Shown here: piece after piece, positions 36,187 through 53,373 of the stretch
Numbering within the stretch: position 1 is the first letter of the stretch
How the letters are laid out: the number at the start of each line of letters is the position of its first letter
Source: Pseudoalteromonas ulvae UL12
Lineage (GTDB): Bacteria > Pseudomonadota > Gammaproteobacteria > Enterobacterales > Alteromonadaceae
DNA length: 64,000 nucleotides
Assembly (NCBI RefSeq): GCF_014925405.1
Contig: NZ_AQHJ01000035.1
Span: forward strand, 62,001-126,000
Direction: 5' to 3'
Position numbers and translations under genes: made by a program
The notes under the pieces: generated by a model
Told to the model about the DNA's origin: nothing
What the model saw: the letters and a program-made list of their open reading frames with translations, nothing else
Database searches by the model: none

Positions 36187-36420
36187 AGCATCGTTGTTGC
36201 GCTGGCGACGGCAGCCCCTTCTCTGGACTCACCCAGCGCCCCAACATCACGCTGTATCCTGCAAATAATCAATTGATGTGAACGCAAGCGGTGAAGATAG
36301 GCCATCCATGGCCAAGCTTCACCTTGCATTTCATCCATGAAATGCCTGACTCATCAATTGTTTATTTTTAGGGCGTGTTCACGGGGGAAATTGGCAGCGG
36401 TGTGAGTTTTGAGAAAAGCT
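36187..36420 (+). repeat. REP-like element, copy 1
   Basis: A compound repeat with two palindromes: GGTGAAG / CTTCACC enclosing GGCCA / TGGCC (36290-36323), and GCATTTCAT / ATGAAATGC (36326-36345). It ends with 'catcaattgtttattttt.gggcgtg.tcacggggg'. A second copy is at 36571. The end motif reappears, reversed, at the RAYT duplication junction (41011-41059), which ties the element to that transposase. Confidence 0.75.
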
Positions 36421-38622: not shown

Positions 38623-39453
38623 GTGTTATCCATGTGCCGTGTATTAAAAATCAATCGCAGTGGCTTTTATGCATGGCTTAAACAGCCGTTGAGCACGAGA
38701 GCGATTGAAGATAATCGCCTGCTCAAGCGGATAAAAGAGTTCTATATTGCCAGCGGCGGAACATATGGTAGCCCTTGGATACATCGTGATCTTCGTGAAG
38801 CGGGCGAGTCTTGTAGCGTGCACCGTGTTGCTAAAATTATGCGACTGAACAACCTTAGAGCGCAGATTGGTTACAAGCGCAAATACATCAAAGGCGTTAA
38901 GCCATCACGGATTGCAGATAACGTATTGGAGCGTGATTTTGCCCCAGACTCACCTAATACTGCGTGGGTGAGTGACATCACGTATGTGCGAACGTATGAG
39001 GGTTTTCTGTACTTAGCGACAGTTATCGACTTGTTCTCACGACGCGTTGTCGGTTGGTCGATGGATAAAAACATGGATAAGCATTTGGTTATCCGGGCAT
39101 TATTAATGGCCGTTTACCAACGTCGGCCAGAACAATCTGTGTTGGTACATAGCGATCAAGGCAGTCAGTATGGCAGTGCAGATTATTTAGCGTTTATGAA
39201 AGAGCATAATCTTATTCCTTCCATGAGCCGCAGAGGAAACTGTCATGATAATGCGGTTGCTGAGAGCTTTTTTGCTACGTTTAAAAAGCGCGTGATCAGA
39301 AAGAAGATATATTCGACCAGAGTCGAAGCGAAGACAGAGATATTTAACTTTATAGAAATGTTTTACAATCCAAAAAAACGCCACTCGCATACAGGCGGTA
39401 TATCACCTGCTAAATTCGAAGAAGCGTATTTTTTGAAACAACAGACTGTCTAG
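38623..39453 (+). CDS. IS3-family transposase OrfB (DDE catalytic part)
   Basis: The catalytic subunit, read in the -1 phase relative to OrfA. The frame is open upstream of the GTG at 38623 through VKYAFIRDHQKQFSVLSMCRVL, so it is normally made as an OrfAB fusion. It has an HTH_21-like segment, the rve integrase core, and the acidic residues in WVSDITYV, VLVHSDQGSQY and NAVAESFFATFK. All appear intact. Confidence 0.94.
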   Translation: MLSMCRVLKINRSGFYAWLKQPLSTRAIEDNRLLKRIKEFYIASGGTYGSPWIHRDLREAGESCSVHRVAKIMRLNNLRAQIGYKRKYIKGVKPSRIADNVLERDFAPDSPNTAWVSDITYVRTYEGFLYLATVIDLFSRRVVGWSMDKNMDKHLVIRALLMAVYQRRPEQSVLVHSDQGSQYGSADYLAFMKEHNLIPSMSRRGNCHDNAVAESFFATFKKRVIRKKIYSTRVEAKTEIFNFIEMFYNPKKRHSHTGGISPAKFEEAYFLKQQTV

Positions 39454-41059: not shown

Positions 41060-41073
41060 TTTTGGTGGCTCAC

Positions 41074-42048
41074 ATGGCACAAGCAAGACGGTCGTTAATT
41101 GATTTAGACTCCACTCCTTACTATCACTGTATTAGTCGATGTGTTCGCAGGGCTTTTTTAGCGGGATTTGATAAGTATTCAGGTCAAAACTTTGAACACC
41201 GACGTGCGTGGTTAGTCGAGCGATTTAAGCGGCTATCGCAAGTGTTTGCCATTGATATTGCGGCCTATGCGGTGATGTCGAATCACTACCATTTGGTGCT
41301 GAAAGTGGATAGAAGTCGGGCATTAAATTGGTCAAAAGACGAGGTGATTGAACGCTGGTATCAACTGTATCACGGCACAATTTTGGTTGACCGCTACCGC
41401 AAGGGTGAGCAGCTAGATAAAGCCTATATGTACAGCGTTGATAAAACGATAGAAGTGTGGCGAAATCGACTTTACGACATCAGTTGGTACATGCGCAACT
41501 TGAATGAATTTATAGCCAGAGAAGCGAATAAAGAAGACCGCTGCACTGGCCGATTCTGGGAAGGACGTTTCAAATCTCAAGCGCTATTAGACGAGCAAGC
41601 TGTACTCAGTTGCATGATGTACGTCGATTTGAATCCCATCAGAGCCAAAATGGCGAAAAACCTGCAAGACAGCGACTTTACGTCAATTCAAGAGCGCATT
41701 CAGCATTACAAAAAGCAGTCCACGTTAGAAAAAACCGAACAAGTTACTCTGCAACCAAAGCAGCTTATGGCGTTTGGCAGTAACGCAAACAATCAAACCA
41801 TTCCATTTAAGTTACTGGATTACCTGGAACTCGCTGATTGGAGTGGCCGACATTTTGACCCCAAAAAGCGCGGCGCTATCAGCAAAACCCAACCCAAGAT
41901 ATTAGTGGAATTGGGGATTGAAACTGCTGTGTGGCTTGAAGCAGTACAAAACTTCAGGCGGCAATATAGCAATTTCGCAGGCCAACCAAACACGCTCAGA
42001 CAATGTGCCCATCAGCATCAGCAAAGCTGGTATCGCGGAGTCGGTTAA
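41074..42048 (+). CDS. REP-associated tyrosine transposase (RAYT, Y1 family)
   Basis: A protein of 324 residues from ATG 41074. A TTG at 41062 is in frame but less likely. It has the Y1-transposase core: YYHCISRCVRRAFL at the start, the metal-binding HUH as NHYHLVL (His71, His73), and the helix with the candidate nucleophile Tyr in MMYVDLNPIRAK. The C-terminal extension (to residue 324) is typical of long RAYTs. RAYTs are single-copy relatives of IS200/IS605 that spread REP sequences. The REP-like palindromes at 36.2-36.7 kb and the junction at 41011 are probably its substrates. Confidence 0.9.
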   Translation: MAQARRSLIDLDSTPYYHCISRCVRRAFLAGFDKYSGQNFEHRRAWLVERFKRLSQVFAIDIAAYAVMSNHYHLVLKVDRSRALNWSKDEVIERWYQLYHGTILVDRYRKGEQLDKAYMYSVDKTIEVWRNRLYDISWYMRNLNEFIAREANKEDRCTGRFWEGRFKSQALLDEQAVLSCMMYVDLNPIRAKMAKNLQDSDFTSIQERIQHYKKQSTLEKTEQVTLQPKQLMAFGSNANNQTIPFKLLDYLELADWSGRHFDPKKRGAISKTQPKILVELGIETAVWLEAVQNFRRQYSNFAGQPNTLRQCAHQHQQSWYRGVG

Positions 42049-44167: not shown

Positions 44168-44642
44168 GTTGTTTGATTATGCCAAAGGGGCTTATTTCGC
44201 CGATAGTTTTTTACGCGAAATTCCTAACAATAATCAGACCGCACTTGATATCTATCTTGAAATTGTGAGACAAACGCCTGCGTGGGTTTCATTCTTAATG
44301 GCAACGAGAAATCGTATGGTATCAATGCTTGGTTTGAAGCACTTAGGCCGACTTCAGGATGCTATGTCAGCGGAAAATGCCGCAAGTATTCGCGTTGGTG
44401 AGAGAATCGGTATTTTCACGTTACACAGTAATCGTGATAATGAAATTGTCTTAGAGGACAGTGACAAACATCTGGATGTAAGAGTATCGTTTTTATTGGA
44501 TGTAGTGGGCGATAAAATTACAGTGCATGCAACCACGGTGGTGCATGTACATAACATGTTTGGCAAGGTGTATATGTTTTTTGTTGCTCCAGTCCACAAG
44601 CTCATCGTTCCTAGTTCTTTGAAAACGTTGCCACAGGCATAA
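44145..44642 (+). CDS. DUF2867 family protein
   Basis: A protein of 165 residues from ATG 44145, which follows a strong ribosome site (ggaggtat). An upstream ATG at 44133 is in frame but lies before that site's proper spacing. It contains WVSFLMATRNRMVSMLGLKHLG, IGIFTLHSNRDNEIVLEDSDKHLDVRVSFLL and a closing MFFVAPVHKLIVPSSL, as in DUF2867 proteins. The fold is thought to be SRPBCC-like. The function is unknown. Confidence 0.82.
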   Translation: MSIPKHSELFDYAKGAYFADSFLREIPNNNQTALDIYLEIVRQTPAWVSFLMATRNRMVSMLGLKHLGRLQDAMSAENAASIRVGERIGIFTLHSNRDNEIVLEDSDKHLDVRVSFLLDVVGDKITVHATTVVHVHNMFGKVYMFFVAPVHKLIVPSSLKTLPQA

Positions 44643-44767
44643 CAATTAAGAATAGGTGTCGCGAAGCATAAAACTAATTTTATGTACTTGGTTTTTTCGA
44701 TGAATTAAAAACACAAAAAAGGTACATATAAATTGTTTATTCACAGATTAAGTGTTAGCTTACTGCT

Positions 44768-44818
44768 ATGAAAATATTATTTTTTATCTCTCAAATTTGT
44801 TGGTGGCGCTCTATTTAG
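44768..44818 (+). CDS. trp-type leader peptide MKILFFISQICWWRSI
   Basis: A 16-codon frame with two adjacent TGG (Trp) codons at 44801-44806 and a stop 3 codons later. It lies 98 bases before the TrpRS gene. Trp is rare, so a WW pair in so short a frame just before a tryptophan gene is the classic signature of a ribosome-mediated attenuator. The ribosome site is weak. The following bases form the alternative hairpins described in the next entry. Confidence 0.8.
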   Translation: MKILFFISQICWWRSI

Positions 44819-44899
44819 AGCGGCACTTGAATCTATTTGTTCAATGGCTGCCGAAAGGTAACAGTTGAATGTCATACTATTTCTTTCGGTCGCTGTTTT
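44808..44899 (+). promoter_or_regulatory. Trp attenuator of the TrpRS gene
   Basis: Three mutually exclusive hairpins can be drawn. 1:2 (pause) is GCTCT 44808-44812 with AGAGC 44817-44821. 2:3 (antiterminator) is CGGCA 44821-44825 plus TTGAA 44827-44831 with TTCAA 44840-44844 plus TGCCG 44849-44853. 3:4 (terminator) is CCGAAAG 44851-44857 with CTTTCGG 44883-44889, extended by outer pairs, then TGTTTTAA. A ribosome stalled at the Trp codons would cover arm 1 and free 2:3, so the TrpRS would be made when charged tRNA-Trp is short. Confidence 0.78.
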
Positions 44900-44916
44900 A
44901 ATTGAAGGAAATACAC

Positions 44917-45915
44917 ATGAACCACAAAATTTTAACCGGCGATAGACCTACAGGGCCACTGCATTTAGGTCATTATGTTGGCTCACTAAAAAACAGAATC
45001 GAATTACAAAATCAATATTCGCAAACGATATTAATAGCTGATCTGCAAGCTTTAACTGACAACAGCCATAATCCGAAAAAGGTGTCGGGTAATATTTTAA
45101 ATGTATTAGCTGACTATCTTGCTGTCGGGATCTGTCCAACTAAAACGACAATTTGTTTGCAGTCTGCTTTACCTGCTTTATCCGAACTTTCTATGTTTTA
45201 TGCCAACTTAGTCTCAGTGTCTCGTTTGGAGCGCAATCCAACCGTTAAGGCGGAAATTGAGAGTAAAGAGTTTGGTAGCTCAATTCCTGCTGGCTTTTTT
45301 AGCTACCCAATCAGTCAGGCTGCTGATATTACTGCATTTGATGCGACCTTAGTGCCAGTAGGCGATGACCAACTTCCTATGATAGAAATTACTAATGAAA
45401 TTGTTAGAAAATTAAATAACATTGCGCAAAAAAACATTCTAACTCAAGCGAAACCATTATTAAGTGATACACCGAGGTTACCTGGCGTTGATGGGAAAGC
45501 TAAAATGTCAAAATCCTTAGGTAATGTTATTACTTTTGGTAGTACTGACGACATGATTGTAAAGGCTGTTCGAGCCATGTATACCGATCCAAATCATTTG
45601 AGAGTGGATGATCCTGGGCAAGTTGAAGGTAATGTCGTCTTTACGTATCTAGATGCCTTTTATGATGACAAAGCGTTTGTTACGCAATTGAAAAATCATT
45701 ATTCAGGAGGTGGGTTGGGGGATAGTAAACTTAAAGGCATTCTGGCTGATTGTTTAATTAACTTGATTACGCCGATAAGGGCTAGACGAGAGCGTTTTTT
45801 AGCCGATCAAGGTGAGCTGATCGCAATTTTAAAATCAGGTACTGAGGTGGCAAATCAACAAACTCAAGCTGTAGCGCAGCGTGTTAAGTCATCTTTTGGA
45901 TTAAATTTATTTTGA
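44917..45915 (+). CDS. trpS: Tryptophanyl-tRNA synthetase, auxiliary (TrpRS II-like) type
   Basis: A 332-residue class I aminoacyl-tRNA synthetase that charges tRNA-Trp. The HIGH motif is HLGH (16-19) in GDRPTGPLHLGHYVGSLKNR, and KMSKS is at 196-200. The start ATG 44917 has GAAGGA 8 bases upstream. The sequence (RPTG.LHLGH, LADLQALTD, LVPVGDDQLPM, LPGVDGKAKMSKSLGN) is closer to the second-type TrpRS known from Deinococcus than to Escherichia coli TrpS. Such second enzymes are often resistant to tryptophan analogues or linked to specialised metabolism. It is controlled by the upstream attenuator and converges on the violacein operon. A housekeeping TrpRS is expected elsewhere. Confidence 0.92.
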   Translation: MNHKILTGDRPTGPLHLGHYVGSLKNRIELQNQYSQTILIADLQALTDNSHNPKKVSGNILNVLADYLAVGICPTKTTICLQSALPALSELSMFYANLVSVSRLERNPTVKAEIESKEFGSSIPAGFFSYPISQAADITAFDATLVPVGDDQLPMIEITNEIVRKLNNIAQKNILTQAKPLLSDTPRLPGVDGKAKMSKSLGNVITFGSTDDMIVKAVRAMYTDPNHLRVDDPGQVEGNVVFTYLDAFYDDKAFVTQLKNHYSGGGLGDSKLKGILADCLINLITPIRARRERFLADQGELIAILKSGTEVANQQTQAVAQRVKSSFGLNLF

Positions 45916-45993: not shown

Positions 45994-46593
45994 TTATTGA
46001 TTTAACAGCTCTGGTTTGAATATTTCTTTATCTATCTTAAAGGTATTAAAATTAGGAAAGTCTCTAACGGATGCACATATGTTTGGATCTCCGGTGATCA
46101 TACGTACCAGATGATTGGTTTCTTTTATAAAATAATATGTAGCAGGACCTTTGTTATCAGGCCGTTGGAAACACCATTTTTCAGCTTGATGCCCTAACAC
46201 TGTTTCAATGCCCATATATTGTGCATTACATGTAATTAAAACATCTTGAGTGAGTATTAATTCATGGCATGGATCGATTTCATCAGTTAAAACTTGGGCT
46301 GAAAATTCTGAGGTACTTTTCATATCGTCACGTGTATAAGCGACTTTTGATTTAAACGATTCGTCCGTATTTGGATGCATAATTTCTGACATCCATAATC
46401 TGTTACCCATCTTTATCTCTGACCAAGGATTGAATATTCCGTCAATACGGCATACATTTTTTGTGTAATCGAACCAACAATAACCTGAAGTAATGTCATC
46501 ATCAGGCTGCATTGGCATCCAATATGAGATATAGCTACTGCTCCATTGCTCAGGTAATAAAGGCGGTGTTTTTGTTAGTTGACCCAGTTGCAT
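45994..46593 (-). CDS. vioE: VioE, violacein biosynthesis enzyme
   Basis: A 199-residue protein. VioE converts the VioB imine dimer to prodeoxyviolacein through a 1,2-indole shift and uses no cofactor. The sequence shows the family features PEQWSSSYISYWMPMQPDDDITSGYCWFDY, VCRIDGIFNPW and the C-terminal WCFQRPDNKGPATYYF. It is slightly longer than the Chromobacterium protein (about 191). It is last in the operon: the ATG at 46593 follows the vioD stop with no gap. A terminator follows. Confidence 0.95.
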   Translation of the reverse strand: MQLGQLTKTPPLLPEQWSSSYISYWMPMQPDDDITSGYCWFDYTKNVCRIDGIFNPWSEIKMGNRLWMSEIMHPNTDESFKSKVAYTRDDMKSTSEFSAQVLTDEIDPCHELILTQDVLITCNAQYMGIETVLGHQAEKWCFQRPDNKGPATYYFIKETNHLVRMITGDPNICASVRDFPNFNTFKIDKEIFKPELLNQ

Positions 46594-47727
46594 TTATTGC
46601 ACTCCTCTCGATAAAGCTTTTTCGAGAGCTTGTCCAAGTGCTGGCGGCAAAGGTGGCAATTGATCTCTACGTGTAGCAAAACTCTTTGCTAACTCTGTAG
46701 TAGATAAATGCATGCGATCTTCCACACTTTCAAACCATAACCGACTGGTACTTGCGTGCTGATCAAACAATTGCATAATTGGCATGACATTTTGGTTGAA
46801 GTCTTCTAACGCCTTAGTAATGTTTTTTGCATGGTCATGCACTGATTTAACCAACAGTTGAGCACCAACTACAGCCATGGTTGTGCCATGCCCTATAGAA
46901 AAGTGTCCAGATTGTAATGCATCACCAATCAGTACTATGTTATCGCTATAGGCTTTTTCATGACTCAATGTCATAAAATTACGCCATTTTAATCCTTGAG
47001 GAGTAATAACGTTATGGCCATCGAGCTCATCCTGAAAGACTGATGCAATAAAGGCTTCTGCATCTTGAGTCGACATTTCATCTAAACCCGATTTTTGATA
47101 GGTTTCATCACTGCATTCAACAACAAAAGTACTCATATTGCTGGAGTATTTATAACTGTGAGCAACAAAAATACCATTCGCTTTGGTTTTGAAAATTAAG
47201 TTCATCTCATCAAACTTTTTAGTTGTTCCATACCACATATAGCGATTTTTACCGAATTCAACCGTCGGTTTTAATGTGTCTTTATAGTAGGTCGATGTTT
47301 GATTAATGCCGTTTGATACCACGACTAAATCATATTTATCGCATTCTAAATCATTCAGCTCTAATGCAGGCTTTTCATATTGGATGTGTATGCCTAAACC
47401 AATACATAATTGTCTGAGTTCACGCACCATTGATTTTCGTTCTGCACCACATAATGTAACGCCCGTTTTTGTTAAGGCGGAATCATTTTGGTGAGTGAGT
47501 TTAAATTGCTCTAAATATTGTGCATCTAATGACTCATGATTTGATAAATATGACAGAGGATTTGCAGGATGCTGCTGCGCTCTCCCTGGTAGCACAACCC
47601 CCCAACCAACACTTTCTTCTTGGTGGTTTTTTTCAATAATATTGATGTTCCAATCCGGGTTTAATTTTTTTATTTGACTAGAAAACATCAATCCTGCCGG
47701 TCCAGCTCCGATCACAAGAATATTCAT
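46594..47727 (-). CDS. vioD: VioD, FAD-dependent hydroxylase of violacein synthesis
   Basis: A protein of about 377 residues, close to Chromobacterium VioD (373). VioD hydroxylates the indole C5 of protodeoxyviolaceinic acid with FAD and NADPH. FAD motifs are MNILVIGAGPAGLMF at the N-terminus and IVLIGDALQSGHFSIGHGTTMAV near residue 275. I take the ATG at 47727, which overlaps the vioC stop as TAATG. An ATG nine codons upstream would lie inside vioC. Translation is coupled to vioC. Confidence 0.95.
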   Translation of the reverse strand: MNILVIGAGPAGLMFSSQIKKLNPDWNINIIEKNHQEESVGWGVVLPGRAQQHPANPLSYLSNHESLDAQYLEQFKLTHQNDSALTKTGVTLCGAERKSMVRELRQLCIGLGIHIQYEKPALELNDLECDKYDLVVVSNGINQTSTYYKDTLKPTVEFGKNRYMWYGTTKKFDEMNLIFKTKANGIFVAHSYKYSSNMSTFVVECSDETYQKSGLDEMSTQDAEAFIASVFQDELDGHNVITPQGLKWRNFMTLSHEKAYSDNIVLIGDALQSGHFSIGHGTTMAVVGAQLLVKSVHDHAKNITKALEDFNQNVMPIMQLFDQHASTSRLWFESVEDRMHLSTTELAKSFATRRDQLPPLPPALGQALEKALSRGVQ

Positions 47728-49016
47728 TAATTTAATCTTCCTATTTTGTACCAAACATTTTGTTTTTGTTGAAAGTGTCTAATTTGGCTGTATTTCATTG
47801 AGGTGAAATATAATTTTTCAGCCATATCAGGAGGGTAAAGTGTGGGGAACTTTTTCCCCATATAACGCAAATACCTGGCTCGTAAAAAGAAAATGGGATT
47901 TGAGCAACTTAATACTTGATAGTTAGCGCGTGCCATATCTTGCATTGCATCGGCTTCTACTTTTCGTAAGCTTGTAAACTCAGGTAAAATATCCGTTAAA
48001 TTGCAATCGTATTTATCAAATAATTCAGCTAGAACGTAGGCATCTTCTAATGCCATATTCATACCTTGGCCTAAAAATGGCGCGGTAGCGTGCGCAGAGT
48101 CGCCTATCAATAAGGCTTTATCTTTGTAGTGGAAGGTTGAAGATCTGACATTGATTAAATCGTTACTCGGTTTCACCATAAATTGTTCAAGTAATTCAGT
48201 GCGTATCTCTGGAGGGAGCATGGCGTAATAACGCTCAAAAAACTCACGCATTGCTTCTTTATCATCTGTATGCAAACTGACTTTGCCGGTAAATGGTAAA
48301 CACACAGCAAAACTGATGCTGCCATCAGGGATCGTCGCTGCTCTTCCTGCAAATTGACCATTCGAGTCCATGCCGAAAAAGTGTAATAAATCAGGTGCTA
48401 GCCCAACGGTTTTTGCATCAGGGATCACTAACGTTTTATAACCATGTTTGAAAAATGATTGCTCAAATTCAAAGCGACGACAATGGGATTGCATGGCCTC
48501 TCTCACACTCGAACGCGCACCATCAGCACCAATTAATAAGTCACCTTGGTGCTCAATAAACTGGTTATGCTCATCTTTGGTTAATAAATGACATTTATCT
48601 AAATTAACTTCTATGCAGCGTTGGTGGAAATGGTAATTCACACCGGCTTTTTCGGCATATTTGTTGAGTAATAACTGGAAATCACTGCGACTTAGGGAAA
48701 GTGGTTTTAATTTATCTAATGGAGGCAACTCGCGTATTTTATTTTTTCCAGCAACAAATAAAGACATGCCAGAGACTTCAACACCGCAATCTTGCAGCTC
48801 ATTGAGGGGAATGCCAGCTTCAACAACAGCCTTTATACCACGCACTGTCATGCTGACACCTATCGCTCTTGAGCTGACTTGATCGATATAATCATTTTGA
48901 TCGAGTAATGGGTTACCTCGTTTTTCAATGACATGTACTTCAAGTCCTTTATTTGCCAAAAAAATTGCTGTTAGGCTGCCTGCTAGGCCACCACCAACAA
49001 TGATTACTTTTTTCAT
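47727..49016 (-). CDS. vioC: VioC, FAD-dependent monooxygenase of violacein synthesis
   Basis: A 429-residue flavoprotein, the same length as Chromobacterium VioC. It oxygenates the second indole C2 in the last steps to violacein and deoxyviolacein. FAD motifs are MKKVIIVGGGLAGSLTAIFLA, LLIGADGARSSVRE and LLIGDSAHATAPFLGQGMNMALEDA. It begins 2 bases after the vioB stop. Confidence 0.96.
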   Translation of the reverse strand: MKKVIIVGGGLAGSLTAIFLANKGLEVHVIEKRGNPLLDQNDYIDQVSSRAIGVSMTVRGIKAVVEAGIPLNELQDCGVEVSGMSLFVAGKNKIRELPPLDKLKPLSLSRSDFQLLLNKYAEKAGVNYHFHQRCIEVNLDKCHLLTKDEHNQFIEHQGDLLIGADGARSSVREAMQSHCRRFEFEQSFFKHGYKTLVIPDAKTVGLAPDLLHFFGMDSNGQFAGRAATIPDGSISFAVCLPFTGKVSLHTDDKEAMREFFERYYAMLPPEIRTELLEQFMVKPSNDLINVRSSTFHYKDKALLIGDSAHATAPFLGQGMNMALEDAYVLAELFDKYDCNLTDILPEFTSLRKVEADAMQDMARANYQVLSCSNPIFFLRARYLRYMGKKFPTLYPPDMAEKLYFTSMKYSQIRHFQQKQNVWYKIGRLN

Positions 49017-49018
49017 TA

Positions 49019-52000
49019 TTAACCCTCCCTTGATAATTGATTGGTTGCGAGCTCGATCATTTGGTTATGATAAAAATCGAGAAGTTCTATTTGCGTTTCT
49101 GGCGGTGTCCCTGAGACTGTTCTGGCCATGTGTGCGAGGTGTTTACATTCTTGTGCGAGTGCAAAACAACCTTTGTGATAATCATCGATCGCTTTAAAGT
49201 TAATAGCTCGCGGTAAAGGTGGCCCGGCATTTCTACCAGCAATACCTGAAGGTAAAGTCATTAAATGCACCGATAGTGGTCTTAAAATACCCGTCATTAA
49301 ATCAATGGCGGCATTCATTAAGCGAGATCGCCTCATGCTTCCTTGTGTTGTTTGGGCAAAATGTTGCATCATCATTTTGAACATAAGTTCATGACACCCT
49401 TGATATAAGGCCATTAACGCTTTGCTATGCGGATCTGTGACGACATTACAGCCCGTGCGTTCGCTCATCACTGGGTTTTTCAAAACCGGATATGCTGGCT
49501 CAAAAGGAATATCACTCAATGTGAGTTTTTTAGATATTGACCTTAAACGATTGAAATGACTTAATTCGAATTGAGGTGAGTCTGCACTGGCGCCTTCACC
49601 CTGTTCTGTTACAAAATCGATAGCAAACAGTGCTGTTTCTTTATCGTACACTTCAAATTGATAATTTGGATAAGCACGATTTATGAGCTCATTTAAAAAC
49701 AAATGATGCTCGCCGCCTCTTTTGCTTATTTCACTGGTGTATAAATTAGGAATTTCATTGATTGCGATACGAATTTCAGAATAAAAGTCAGCAATTGATT
49801 GACCTACTGAAGCAAAAAAATGCGGCCATTCAAAACGGACAAACTTAGCGATAATATGTTCTGAAAATGGTTCAAAAGAAAACTCCGTATCTAACCCAAA
49901 TTTATCTTTTGCTGCTTGGCCAAAAATAGGTTCACCAGGGTAAAAAGGTTCGCCTAAAGACATTAAAATATTATTAACTACTAAGTAATGAATCATTTCT
50001 TCATGCGCGATTTCTAAAATTGCACCTCGCCAACCGCTATCTCTGCGCCTGTCTTTAGTTCCATTCACTAAAGCTAATTGCTCTTGAGTCCAGCGGCCTG
50101 AATCGACCAATTGCTCTGCGGCTGCATAGGTTGGCAAAGAATAGGCGCTGTATAGATATTGCAGCATAATTGAAAGTTCGAGATCGACAGCATCACGAAG
50201 CTTTGCGATTAGTTGTGCTTTATTTTTAATGTCACCTTTTACTTTTATGGGCTGATGCAAATCTGGCAGGAGTTTTGGAATGGCCGATTGTTCAACATTA
50301 CTTAAGTATTTAAGAAAGAGGTGTGATTTAACAGACGACATTTCTCTAGTGCTGGGCATGTAATAACTTTTATTGCGATTCTTTGGGTCACACATTTGCC
50401 ACATCAAGCGGGCGTAAGTTTCACATTTACATTTATCGGCCATGCTAAACACTTTGTCAGCCATAAATGGGTAAAGCAATTCGTAATATCCCATCACATT
50501 GTGATAAAGAAAATCATAATCGACATATTCGTCTGGCACATTGAGTAAGTGCCAATCATCACTGAGAATACGCACTTGAATGGGGCTCGCTTGCTCGCCT
50601 AAAAAGAGCTCTCCACTTCCTGCTGCTAAACTCTCAATGGTTAGTTTTCCTTTTCCTTGATGGTCAGTTTCAATAAATGCATCACAATTAATGGTTTTCG
50701 GTGTTGCTATAAAAGGCACTAGACGGTTAATCGAACTGGGTTTGCCGCGCAAATAACTGAAAATCTCAATTTCGTTAGTACTTTTACTCTCCTCGTTAGG
50801 GTTGGACGATTCGATCGCGATAATGTTTTGTTCTGCTTGTATCTGCCAATCGGATTCGTGCCAAGTATGCTGGTTGGACGCTAAGCTAAGAGACAGTTCA
50901 TCCAATGCCGTATTGCTTATTTTTAATGGGATATCAAAAACATGATTGTTATCTGAATGTTGATAAAGTGACTCAGGTAAAATCGCAATAACTTCACCAT
51001 TACTTGATTTTAGAACTAAATCTCCTAACGAGACTTTATTCGCTAGCTTGGGAGGCATGCCATTTTTTACAGGTAGCGACTCTAAATACGCTTGATGTGG
51101 AATGCTAATAGGCATATTCAAACTTGCCCAACCATCCTGAATTTTAACTGTAATAGGTGAATACTGAGCGGGGTTATCTGGTTGTAAAATTCGGCCTGTT
51201 GGGTTAGTAGCCATTTCATGCTTACGCCATAGACCGATTGTTCCATGCAGGTCACAAAAAACAGGTGTATCGGGTTGTTGAGGAGGAGAAAGATTCGATA
51301 CACAATATTGTACTGTTAAGCCAAGTACATCGGGGTCTTCAAGTGCGGCTTTTAGTTGCGCTAAAAAGGGAGAATCGATATTTAACTGGTTAAATAAAAA
51401 GTTCTGATTCTTTTTACAAACAGAAAATTGAAATAACCGAGCTTCTGCCATTTCACTGCATAAAAAATGGTTGGGCTGTTCGACTATGTATCCAGGGTTT
51501 AGCCAACGAACACCATGTGTGCAATCTATATCGGAAGAAAATATATGTGCTGTATTTGCCGACGCATTTGCATCACTAATTGTCAGTTGACCAGCATATA
51601 TTAAAGCTGAGTCTCGCCTTGTTGGATCATTATCAACCCAGCGAGCGCGATTAAAGGATGTTCTTAAATATTCGTTATAATGCCCCCATAAACCCAATTT
51701 ACTGCCGACTAAGGGATCGGTCGTTTGATTGTGTCCAGGATGCAGTTGCACTGATGTAATGTAGGTATTTTCCCAAGAAAAATGGTTATTCCCTATCATG
51801 TTATATCCCGCTACATGATTAAAATCGCCCTTTGGATCTTCTTGACCTAAATGATTAAATTTGGGTGTAAAAGACTTTAAATATTCATGGTATTTACTGG
51901 GATGTTGTTTTAAGTCAAATTCAGAACCATGTTGGAAGACTGTATTAGTCGCGATATCAAGCGTATTTTTGATATTTCTGTTTGCTGTGGGCACGTTAAC

Positions 52001-52048
52001 ACGCGCCGCACCCTTAAAATGAACTCGGGGAAAATCGAGAATACTCAT
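49019..52048 (-). CDS. vioB: VioB, iminophenyl-pyruvate dimer synthase-type enzyme
   Basis: A 1009-residue protein (Chromobacterium VioB is about 998). It couples two molecules of the indole-3-pyruvate imine made by VioA into the short-lived dimer that VioE rearranges. The N-terminal half opens with MSILDFPRVHFKGAARVNVPTANR as in VioB/StaD/RebD homologues. The C-terminal half has the ferritin-like segment ILEIAHEEMIHYLVVNNILMSLG and FYPGEP. It is 41 bases downstream of vioA. Size and order are standard, so a working enzyme is expected. Confidence 0.96.
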   Translation of the reverse strand: MSILDFPRVHFKGAARVNVPTANRNIKNTLDIATNTVFQHGSEFDLKQHPSKYHEYLKSFTPKFNHLGQEDPKGDFNHVAGYNMIGNNHFSWENTYITSVQLHPGHNQTTDPLVGSKLGLWGHYNEYLRTSFNRARWVDNDPTRRDSALIYAGQLTISDANASANTAHIFSSDIDCTHGVRWLNPGYIVEQPNHFLCSEMAEARLFQFSVCKKNQNFLFNQLNIDSPFLAQLKAALEDPDVLGLTVQYCVSNLSPPQQPDTPVFCDLHGTIGLWRKHEMATNPTGRILQPDNPAQYSPITVKIQDGWASLNMPISIPHQAYLESLPVKNGMPPKLANKVSLGDLVLKSSNGEVIAILPESLYQHSDNNHVFDIPLKISNTALDELSLSLASNQHTWHESDWQIQAEQNIIAIESSNPNEESKSTNEIEIFSYLRGKPSSINRLVPFIATPKTINCDAFIETDHQGKGKLTIESLAAGSGELFLGEQASPIQVRILSDDWHLLNVPDEYVDYDFLYHNVMGYYELLYPFMADKVFSMADKCKCETYARLMWQMCDPKNRNKSYYMPSTREMSSVKSHLFLKYLSNVEQSAIPKLLPDLHQPIKVKGDIKNKAQLIAKLRDAVDLELSIMLQYLYSAYSLPTYAAAEQLVDSGRWTQEQLALVNGTKDRRRDSGWRGAILEIAHEEMIHYLVVNNILMSLGEPFYPGEPIFGQAAKDKFGLDTEFSFEPFSEHIIAKFVRFEWPHFFASVGQSIADFYSEIRIAINEIPNLYTSEISKRGGEHHLFLNELINRAYPNYQFEVYDKETALFAIDFVTEQGEGASADSPQFELSHFNRLRSISKKLTLSDIPFEPAYPVLKNPVMSERTGCNVVTDPHSKALMALYQGCHELMFKMMMQHFAQTTQGSMRRSRLMNAAIDLMTGILRPLSVHLMTLPSGIAGRNAGPPLPRAINFKAIDDYHKGCFALAQECKHLAHMARTVSGTPPETQIELLDFYHNQMIELATNQLSREG

Positions 52049-52089
52049 TTTATGTCATTTCCTATATTGATCATTGCTTGATATTTTTA

Positions 52090-53373
52090 TTAAAGGTTAT
52101 CTGTTTGATGCTCTTCTTCAGCCTCAATGCGTTTGAGCAACTTAAGTGCTGCGCTTTTTCCTGCCATCACACCGCCTTCCATCCAGCCACAGTGGGGGGT
52201 ATAAGCATCCGAGGCTGAGATGATTTGACTTTTCTTATGGACAAAACTAAGTGGGTGACTAGGGCTACATTCTTTTGAAAACTCAACGCCATGAATCCAA
52301 TATTTATGTGTTTGTTCAATCGGATCGGGTATTTGATCTACATCGCATTGAATGGCATCAGCCATAAGTTCTTTGACTGTTTTCAAATAATGGGCTTCAC
52401 CATGTTGACTCGTTTCTTGCCAGAAATTAGCGAAATCACTATCTGTGTAAAAAAAGATATAGCGATTATCTTTAAAGTAGAGTTTTCTGATCGGGTTATT
52501 GGTAATAATCACATGATCTGTCAAAGATAAGTTTTGCCACCAAGGGTTATCATAAAAAAGAAAACCTTTAAAAAGTGGGATTGAGCCATAGGTATAATGC
52601 GTCCAATCTTGTGGAAAATTACAATTGAGTCTGCTCATGGCTGAAGGAGGTAATGTGACGATCATGTCCCCTTGAGTGATGCGCACAATATCGTCATTAC
52701 TGTTTTTTAAGGTTAAGGCAGGTGTTTTTGCATGGTTATCAATTGTTATGAGTTCATAATCGAAATGAAATTCAACACCTAATTCGACTGCACGGTCATA
52801 TAATATTTGTGGAAGTGTGCAAAACCCTTCTTTTAGGTTGCGCCAGGTATAGCCTGCATTGTCAGAAAAACCTTGGATCTCTGGGTGTTTTTCTATTATG
52901 TCGTATGCAATGTTAGGGGTAATAAAGGGAAGTGATAAAGAGTCATATCCAAGCGCGTTAATGATGTCCTTACTTTTATCTTCACCTAAATAAGCAGTTA
53001 GAAAGTTTAAGAATGAGTCATTTTTATGCTCATCACACATAGGCTTTAATTTGTTTAAGATTTCTTTTAACTGACTATGCAGCTCTTGTGGCCTAGTCAA
53101 TTGGGTAAAGGGAAAACTTTCATTTTCAATATTAAAGTGTGCAACCAGTTCATTAATATTTTTATGAAGCTGTGGTGAAAACCGGCCAGCGCCAAGATCA
53201 ATAAATTGTTCTTGAATTTTTATTGCATGGGCTCTGCCACCAACACGTTTTTTATGCTCAAAAACACGAATTGTTTTTTTGCTACCTAAATGAAAATTAG
53301 CGAGCGTCAGTGCACACATAATTCCCGACACTCCAGCCCCTACAATGGATATAATATTTTCTTGATTCGACAT
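52090..53373 (-). CDS. vioA: VioA, L-tryptophan oxidase of violacein synthesis
   Basis: A 427-residue flavoenzyme that oxidises L-tryptophan to the indole-3-pyruvate imine, the entry step. The N-terminal FAD motif ISIVGAGVSGIMCALTLA is followed by VFEHKKRVGGRAHAI and DLGAGRFSP, typical of flavin amine oxidases, and the C-terminal YTPHCGWMEGGVMAGKSAA closes the FAD site. It is first in the vioABCDE operon. The upstream 380 bases hold an inverted repeat and a 12-bp palindrome but no evident lux box. Confidence 0.96.
   Translation of the reverse strand: MSNQENIISIVGAGVSGIMCALTLANFHLGSKKTIRVFEHKKRVGGRAHAIKIQEQFIDLGAGRFSPQLHKNINELVAHFNIENESFPFTQLTRPQELHSQLKEILNKLKPMCDEHKNDSFLNFLTAYLGEDKSKDIINALGYDSLSLPFITPNIAYDIIEKHPEIQGFSDNAGYTWRNLKEGFCTLPQILYDRAVELGVEFHFDYELITIDNHAKTPALTLKNSNDDIVRITQGDMIVTLPPSAMSRLNCNFPQDWTHYTYGSIPLFKGFLFYDNPWWQNLSLTDHVIITNNPIRKLYFKDNRYIFFYTDSDFANFWQETSQHGEAHYLKTVKELMADAIQCDVDQIPDPIEQTHKYWIHGVEFSKECSPSHPLSFVHKKSQIISASDAYTPHCGWMEGGVMAGKSAALKLLKRIEAEEEHQTDNL

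Follow-up and report, generated by a model that had tools for sequence, protein, structure and literature searches.

The DNA analysed here, a 64,000-nucleotide stretch of Pseudoalteromonas ulvae UL12 (the window), carries a gene for an auxiliary tryptophanyl-tRNA synthetase (TrpRS II) behind a short leader ORF in which two Trp codons stand in tandem, and thereby raises the question of how, and at which level, such a leader could control the synthetase. In the sequence-only reading that preceded this analysis, 44768-44899 was proposed to be a ribosome-mediated Trp attenuator ending in a 3:4 hairpin with a T-rich tail. The Trp-codon leader, its conserved frame and the 1:2 and 2:3 pairings of that proposal were retained, but its terminator end was not, and sequestration of the trpS Shine-Dalgarno (SD) region is read in its place. 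The leader is probably a ribosome-mediated translational attenuator that senses tRNA-Trp charging and controls the auxiliary TrpRS II. Loci, genomes and families are referred to below by L, G and f numbers where they have to be told apart.

The trpS gene and its leader ORF

The features at the 5' end of the locus and its surroundings were as follows:

44733..44761, + strand: promoter-like element, consisting of TTGTTT (44733-44738), a 17-nt spacer and TG-n-TAGCTT (hexamer 44756-44761), 6 nt before the leader ATG
44768..44818, + strand: leader ORF MKILFFISQICWWRSI followed by TAG (ATG at 44768, TAG at 44816-44818, Trp codons TGG TGG at 44801-44806)
44917..45915, + strand: gene for the auxiliary tryptophanyl-tRNA synthetase (TrpRS II, 332 aa), assigned by family model and closest PDB relatives
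45994..53373, - strand: vioE, vioD, vioC, vioB and vioA, convergent with trpS; neighbours, outside the switch

In the family model scan the trpS product scored 223.1 bits against TIGR00233 (cut-off 176.75), its closest PDB chains were 2a4m ('Tryptophanyl-tRNA synthetase II', the top match) and 1yi8 ('tryptophanyl-tRNA synthetase'), and HLGH and KMSKS motifs were present in its sequence; its nearest named relatives were from Pseudoalteromonas. The enzyme was taken as auxiliary because the same genome carries a second TrpRS (31% identity to TrpRS II of the window), and the earlier identification of the regulated gene as an auxiliary trpS was borne out by the TIGR00233 and 2a4m matches together with this second enzyme. 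Elsewhere in the window, a TwoAYGGAY RNA (RF01731; 52.3 bits, cut-off 43) was found by Rfam scan at 36249-36381 on the minus strand, and two ORFs about 3-6 kb 5' of the leader (38623-39453 and 41062-42048) presumably resemble an IS3-type transposase and a REP-associated transposase.

The 16-codon leader with tandem Trp codons that had been described was recovered as MKILFFISQICWWRSI and its frame is conserved, a short ORF with TGGTGG lying upstream of 94 of the 105 distinct TrpRS II loci; because the search was for TGGTGG, the tandem Trp codons in this count are given by construction, and their position within the ORF and the conserved surroundings are independent of the criterion. The 103 rows read corresponded to 102 loci (L103 is the same as L074), with a leader in 94 loci (95 rows). 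Eight loci had no leader call (L077, one Trp codon; L095, L107 and L134-L137, none; L102, unread because its anchor motif was missing), and L012 (the same as L004), L031 and L032 had been left out beforehand as leaderless, hence the total of 105. Removal of rows with identical sequences (L023, L076, L078 and L103) left 91 unique leaders. At L077, a Celerinatantimonas-type locus, the leader-like stretch holds just the one Trp codon, together with a GC hairpin that has a T tail. The first Trp codon was codon 11-16 in 91 of the 95 rows and the stop codon followed 4-6 codons later in 93 of 95 (one locus counted twice); in L010 the leader stop was located further downstream (WWRSILSGT). Beyond WW the leader peptide varied (WWRS, WWHS, WWCS, WWCCS, WWLPS, WWQPS).

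The promoter-like element of the window matched just 6 of 12 consensus positions and was unlisted in a stricter promoter scan, the single match of which (44619-44646) was at chance level. In the relatives, a TTGnnn-17-TAnnnT-like element (best match in each) ended 6-9 nt 5' of the leader ATG in 73 of 91, and this class scored highest among the 4-nt distance classes, with at least 7 of 12 positions matched in 49 of 91, compared to 30 for the next class. An SD-like motif was found before the leader ORF in only 4 of 91 sequences and before trpS in 86 of 91. Because of the putative promoter 6-9 nt upstream and the rarity of SD-like motifs, the leader ORF may be read from the very 5' end of the transcript, that is, translated as a leaderless ORF. 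The ATG of the leader ORF is also the transcript 5' end in S. meliloti trpL, according to PMC7298713, and this likeness would favour a leader whose main action is in trans, through an rnTrpL/peTrpL-type small RNA or peptide, or one that sets mRNA stability. Such a role is extremely improbable here, since the peptide beyond WW is not conserved and the pairings in cis, that of the trpS SD among them, covary (see below).

Competing pairings and their covariation

The folding check that had been proposed for 44768-44916 gave -39.6 kcal/mol, compared to -26.2 +/- 3.2 kcal/mol for shuffled sequences (z -4.2; 0 of 200 as low), the region being more stable than its shuffles. The following arms, all on the + strand, were distinguished:

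44802..44812, + strand: arm a (1), GGTG and CGCTCT, over the Trp codons; in 1:2 (a:b), 44802-44805/44807-44812 pair with 44817-44822/44824-44827
44817..44832, + strand: arm b (2), partner of a or c in conserved alternative helices; in 2:3 (b:c), 44820-44824 pair with 44847-44851, and 44827-44832 with 44839-44844
44839..44852, + strand: arm c (3), 5' half of the c:d hairpin (GAAA loop 44853-44856)
44851..44858, + strand: segment X, CCGAAAGG, comprising the end of c, the loop and the start of d; an SD look-alike forming 8 bp with e at 44882-44889
44857..44870, + strand: arm d, 3' half of the c:d hairpin, pairs with c
44878..44890, + strand: arm e, anti-SD TATTTCTTTCGGT, pairs with f or X
44901..44913, + strand: arm f, trpS Shine-Dalgarno region ATTGAAGGAAATA, 13 bp with e
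44845..44903, + strand: extended X:e (the 3:4 of the earlier reading), 44845-44857 with 44883-44895, tail GTTTTAATT at 44895-44903

The competing 1:2 and 2:3 hairpins claimed previously were both found to be conserved and mutually exclusive, with pair-preserving changes. The extent given to the element (44768-44899) was right as to the leader and its hairpins, which are real, but too short, as the element reaches 44913, where e pairs with the trpS SD region; the c:d hairpin (44839-44870) had been overlooked. Segment X resembles f because both are complementary to e. By prediction and covariation, the SD of trpS is paired in the default fold (a:b, c:d and e:f) and an alternative pairing of the anti-SD arm e that would free the SD is present; none of 100 shuffled upstream regions equalled the e:f helix of the window. 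The conserved element is a predicted six-arm switch.

Covariation across relatives, a check also proposed earlier, was assessed in a sequence-only alignment (A1). It held the window among 47 leaders, drawn from the 61 unique ones that belong to neither f18 nor f25 and are not L115. For the default helices, 83.4% of the cells were paired, compared to 31.6-48.3% when the helices were slid by 1-3 columns, and the covariation score was 0.270 (at most 0.107 slid); 17 of 32 pairs were changed on both sides, against a shuffled mean of 13.4, with 10 of 500 shuffles as high (kinship ignored). Helix a:b was paired in 97.3% of cells and the two b:c helices in 99.6% and 95.2%. The alternative fold of b:c with the upper X:e had 95.0% paired cells (31.1-53.1% slid; 7 of 17 pairs changed on both sides), and the full X:e had 93.5% (26.5-65.8% slid; 9 of 13 pairs). 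'Further pair types' were not above shuffles in the A1 tests (308, 467 and 467 of 500 as high). The lower X:e, in which GCTGC pairs with the tail of e, covaries although b:c uses the same bases, and a state with full X:e and without b:c must therefore matter.

An alignment-free swap test comprised 91 sequences in 12 groups, with foreign pairs taken from the first eight members per group (L115, which belongs to family f6, was labelled as f25 in this test, a label with no effect on the totals over 91). Own X:e partners had a mean of -16.5 kcal/mol compared to -11.0 for foreign partners, and own e:f partners -12.4 compared to -8.7, with 0 of 5000 label permutations as good in either case (kinship ignored); the own partner was the single best in 4 of 12 groups for X:e and in 8 of 12 for e:f. 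In L115 the c:d loop is ATAA, not of the GNRA type, and e has followed with compensating changes across 11 bp. In 33 of the 91 sequences, contiguous e:f was equalled by no more than one shuffle in 100. A strict split into two classes, with f18 and f25 lacking SD pairing, had been considered from contiguous helices only and was rejected when a search tolerating bulges and mismatches found e:f there too, in interrupted form. Relative to shuffles, b:c was weak in f11, f18a, f18b, L033 and the Moritella-type group (median p 0.08-0.15), and a:b in the Moritella-type group (0.15). Altogether, both the default and the alternative fold are supported by pair-preserving changes in the aligned leaders, in which the frame and the 1:2 and 2:3 pairings are conserved; the ORF, the arms, the covarying pairings and the link to TrpRS II can all be read from the sequence comparison.

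Level and direction of control

From these pairings we infer a switch with ribosome stalling as its trigger and trpS translation as its output. With ample Trp-tRNA the leader ribosome would reach the stop codon, and in this state, or with no ribosome at all, a:b (or the ribosome over b) together with c:d and e:f would hide the trpS SD, leaving the gene off. A ribosome stalled at either Trp codon would cover a and leave b free to pair with the foot of c, which would prevent c:d from closing; the exposed SD look-alike X could then capture the anti-SD e as e is transcribed, f would be released, and TrpRS II would be translated (on). Once seeded, X:e would probably extend and displace b:c, as the covariation of the lower X:e suggests. 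A simple chain from 2:3 to e:f was rejected for its wrong sign, a conflict that was resolved once X was recognised as a partner of e.

In classical transcription attenuation, 44845-44857/44883-44895 would instead be an intrinsic terminator, 2:3 the antiterminator and the SD pairing incidental, and the 3:4 hairpin with its T tail had indeed been claimed as the off-switch. This pairing belongs to the minimum-energy fold of 44768-44916, TTTTAATT comes after it, and at least four T follow X:e in 27 of the 91 unique relatives, including two of the three members of the window's group and all five of f21a. The T run is absent in the remaining 64, among them all 11 members of the P. luteoviolacea-type group and all 30 of f18, f25 and L115; L010, the TrpRS of which is 93% identical to that of the window, has CTACTTAAATTG in its place. 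In the window the tail after X:e consists of only four T, the hairpin has a 25-nt loop, no compact terminator was found in a scan of 44600-44960, and the final alternative is not the intrinsic terminator by which a trp-type transcription attenuator is recognised. X:e does keep its base pairs, and once paired in it, e would leave the SD free. The covarying e:f helix would, moreover, be left without a role. The 3:4 hairpin was accordingly rejected as the main transcription terminator on the absent T runs (L010 included), the loop and the negative scan, and classical attenuation is an unlikely explanation of the leader.

Under translational control by SD sequestration, termination could still contribute in some lineages through the middle hairpin. 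No T run follows c:d in the window's group (three members), and one was found in 19 of 22 members of f25 and f18a (L115 taken out of f25) and in 1 of 7 of f18b. With its T run, c:d looks like an off-state hairpin in f25 and f18a, which argues that opening c:d turns the gene on, and transcription termination at c:d may reinforce the same logic in f25 and part of f18.

The direction of the response was modelled in two ways. Ribosome-blocked equilibrium folding gave an SD openness for the window of 0.30 free, 0.33 with the ribosome at the stop codon and 0.65-0.66 stalled; the corresponding values were 0.03, 0.18 and 0.57-0.68 for L010, and 0.00, 0.01 and 0.31 for L011. Outside the window group there was little change at equilibrium, the mean over the 91 leaders being 0.15 free, 0.17 stalled and 0.15 at stop, and some P. 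luteoviolacea-type leaders behaved oppositely (L014, 0.44 at stop and 0.02 stalled; L013, 0.20 and 0.01; L017, 0.33 and 0.13; L022, from 0.62 free to 0.03 stalled). In a crude sketch of co-transcriptional folding, with a 7 kcal/mol barrier and a footprint of 14 nt, all three leaders of the window group were closed at stop and open at stall, and over the 91 leaders the SD was more open at stall than at stop in 59, less open in 4 and equal in 28; without any ribosome it was open (at least 0.8) in 7 of 47. With a barrier of 5 the window leader was closed in 7 of 8 stall settings and L010 and L011 were mostly open; the window group was nearly clean at 9 and mixed at 3 and 12. For the other 88 leaders the outcome was 40 up, 16 down and 32 equal at barrier 5, and 30, 4 and 54, respectively, at 10. 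The co-transcriptional model thus supports, without proving, SD opening on stall; over both models the support is uneven.

A translational switch of the opposite sign would form X:e and turn trpS on without a stall, and would turn it off through b:c and e:f on stalling. It would draw on the mutual exclusion of b:c and full X:e, on the covarying lower X:e and on the ability of a freed e to form e:f, and L013, L014, L017 and L022 fold in this way at equilibrium. The co-transcriptional counts at barriers 7, 5 and 10 all lean towards opening on stall, however. In f25 and f18a, where c:d is T-tailed and must be opened by b:c, the opposite sign would have a stall let transcription through while shutting translation off. 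Less TrpRS while tRNA-Trp is uncharged would also make little sense, and the opposite sign is consequently very unlikely.

Distribution, neighbourhoods and relation to known systems

TrpRS II was found in 22 of 108 Pseudoalteromonas genomes (E <= 1e-60), in 21 of 395 genomes sampled from the family and 65 of 394 from the order (E <= 1e-90), and in 2 of 369 sampled from the class (E <= 1e-80), the window genome being included in each count. A leader covariance model built from A1, run with strict filters and few candidates scored per genome, matched 21 of the 108 Pseudoalteromonas genomes at E <= 0.01, every one of them a TrpRS II genome (22 in total), and gave no match at this threshold in the other 86; the TrpRS II genome left unmatched, G071, has lost the leader. 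In the order sample, 31 of 394 genomes were matched at E <= 0.001, with 30 matches directly before TrpRS II and one chance match. The model thereby recovered 30 of the 65 TrpRS II genomes of this sample, missing f25 and most of f18, whose leaders differ from those in A1. L139 (E 4.8e-4) was rejected as a leader, being a chance hairpin that no TrpRS follows. The predicted leader parts are conserved well beyond the window genome, in several families of the order.

Remnants and losses were also seen. A decayed leader copy with a weak model match lies at L138:1431-1524 on the minus strand (G103, P. tunicata-like), with TAG in the place of the first Trp codon and no TrpRS downstream. In L012/L036 (G071) and L004 (Pseudoalteromonas sp. 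NBT06-2), TrpRS II is 89% identical to that of the window, foreign sequence replaces the leader with a breakpoint near arm e, and there is no vioB match.

The placement of the leader beside violacein genes, to which attention had been drawn earlier, is correct for the window, but the leader is not tied to violacein, as six vioB-less genomes keep it and it occurs in several families. The vio genes adjoin the leader-bearing TrpRS II copy in 15 of the 22 Pseudoalteromonas TrpRS II genomes (the window, 13 others and G093); the other seven had no vioB match, six of them keeping the leader (L025-L030) and one (G071) having lost it. Conversely, 4 of 19 vioB genomes had no TrpRS II match (G002, G011, G028 and G077). 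A violacein-specific leader was rejected on these counts. Violacein and the leader are associated in Pseudoalteromonas (Fisher p 5.6e-10 for vioB and TrpRS II, kinship ignored), yet the leader is independent of violacein. In two genomes a leaderless second TrpRS II copy (L031/L032, 69% identical; L054, L055) was noted beside ORFs that by eye were aminotransferase- and methyltransferase-like, a predicted neighbourhood resembling the published indolmycin cluster, which is reported with a TrpRS in P. luteoviolacea in PMC5069768.

The chances seem to us about even that these leaders form an old switch family of one order, in which a leaderless Trp-codon ORF and a six-arm SD-mimic translational attenuator are dedicated to TrpRS II and read tRNA-Trp charging, with a terminator gained or kept at the middle hairpin in some families and the switch recruited afterwards into antibiotic and pigment loci that consume Trp. 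If so, induction of a spare TrpRS in many marine gammaproteobacteria would be explained, and a Trp drain or a TrpRS inhibitor could have a route to trigger the backup enzyme in bacteria with violacein genes. One leader design would appear at both ends of attenuation, with SD hiding in most lineages and an added T-tailed hairpin in others, a natural series in which it could be tested how transcriptional and translational attenuation replace one another; TrpRS II genes could also gain a new annotation in this leader.

At gathering score, no Rfam family was matched in the leader of the window or of 13 related loci scanned. The gathering score of RF00513 (Trp_leader) was reached in neither the window nor the 13 loci (best, L099 with 29.7 bits against 41), and no T-box was seen, the window scan at gathering score giving one other family only and the 13 TrpRS II loci giving only Trp_leader at E <= 1. 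The leader shares with the proteobacterial trp operon leaders of RF00513 the tandem-Trp ORF over arm 1 and the competition of 1:2 with 2:3, and differs from them in that a tRNA synthetase is controlled and that SD sequestration is predicted at the end.

Among other regulators, ermA has a six-segment topology, the pheST attenuator uses Phe codons and transcription termination, T-boxes bind tRNA directly, and the Trp leader before the auxiliary trpS of S. coelicolor (TrpRS1) has reportedly been studied experimentally. PMC1262725 gives a predicted Trp-leader attenuator before trpS2 of S. avermitilis, mentions the pheST attenuator of gammaproteobacteria, and describes a translational T-box before ileS in Actinobacteria that is thought to act by SD sequestration. 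As far as these descriptions go, the Streptomyces leaders share a Trp-codon leader before an auxiliary TrpRS and are described as classical attenuators; in gammaproteobacteria pheST is likewise an aminoacyl-tRNA synthetase locus governed through a leader peptide; and the ileS T-box shares a synthetase gene under supposed SD sequestration, whereas the window leader has no T-box match. S. meliloti trpL, which controls trpE(G) by transcription attenuation (PMC7298713), is alike in having a trp leader ORF at the transcript 5' end, the leaderless start being a prediction here. In the ermC and ermB translational attenuators, as outlined in PMC5118997, a stalled leader ribosome rearranges the mRNA and frees a hidden SD; the same stall-driven SD release is proposed here, but the erm trigger is a drug-bound ribosome and the trigger here presumably an empty Trp codon.

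No description of such a leader before trpS in gammaproteobacteria was found in the open-licence literature, and trpS had no occurrences in PMC2965389. Because the Streptomyces and pheST precedents exist and this search returned no earlier description, the leader is placed as a variant of known attenuators. As judged from the sequences and folding models, it would work as erm-type translational attenuators do, with Trp codons as the driver, and it lies outside Rfam Trp_leader at gathering score. Within the literature covered, predicted Trp leaders before trpS in Streptomyces and the pheST precedent for a synthetase are already known, and the proposed Trp-codon translational variant before TrpRS II would be new.
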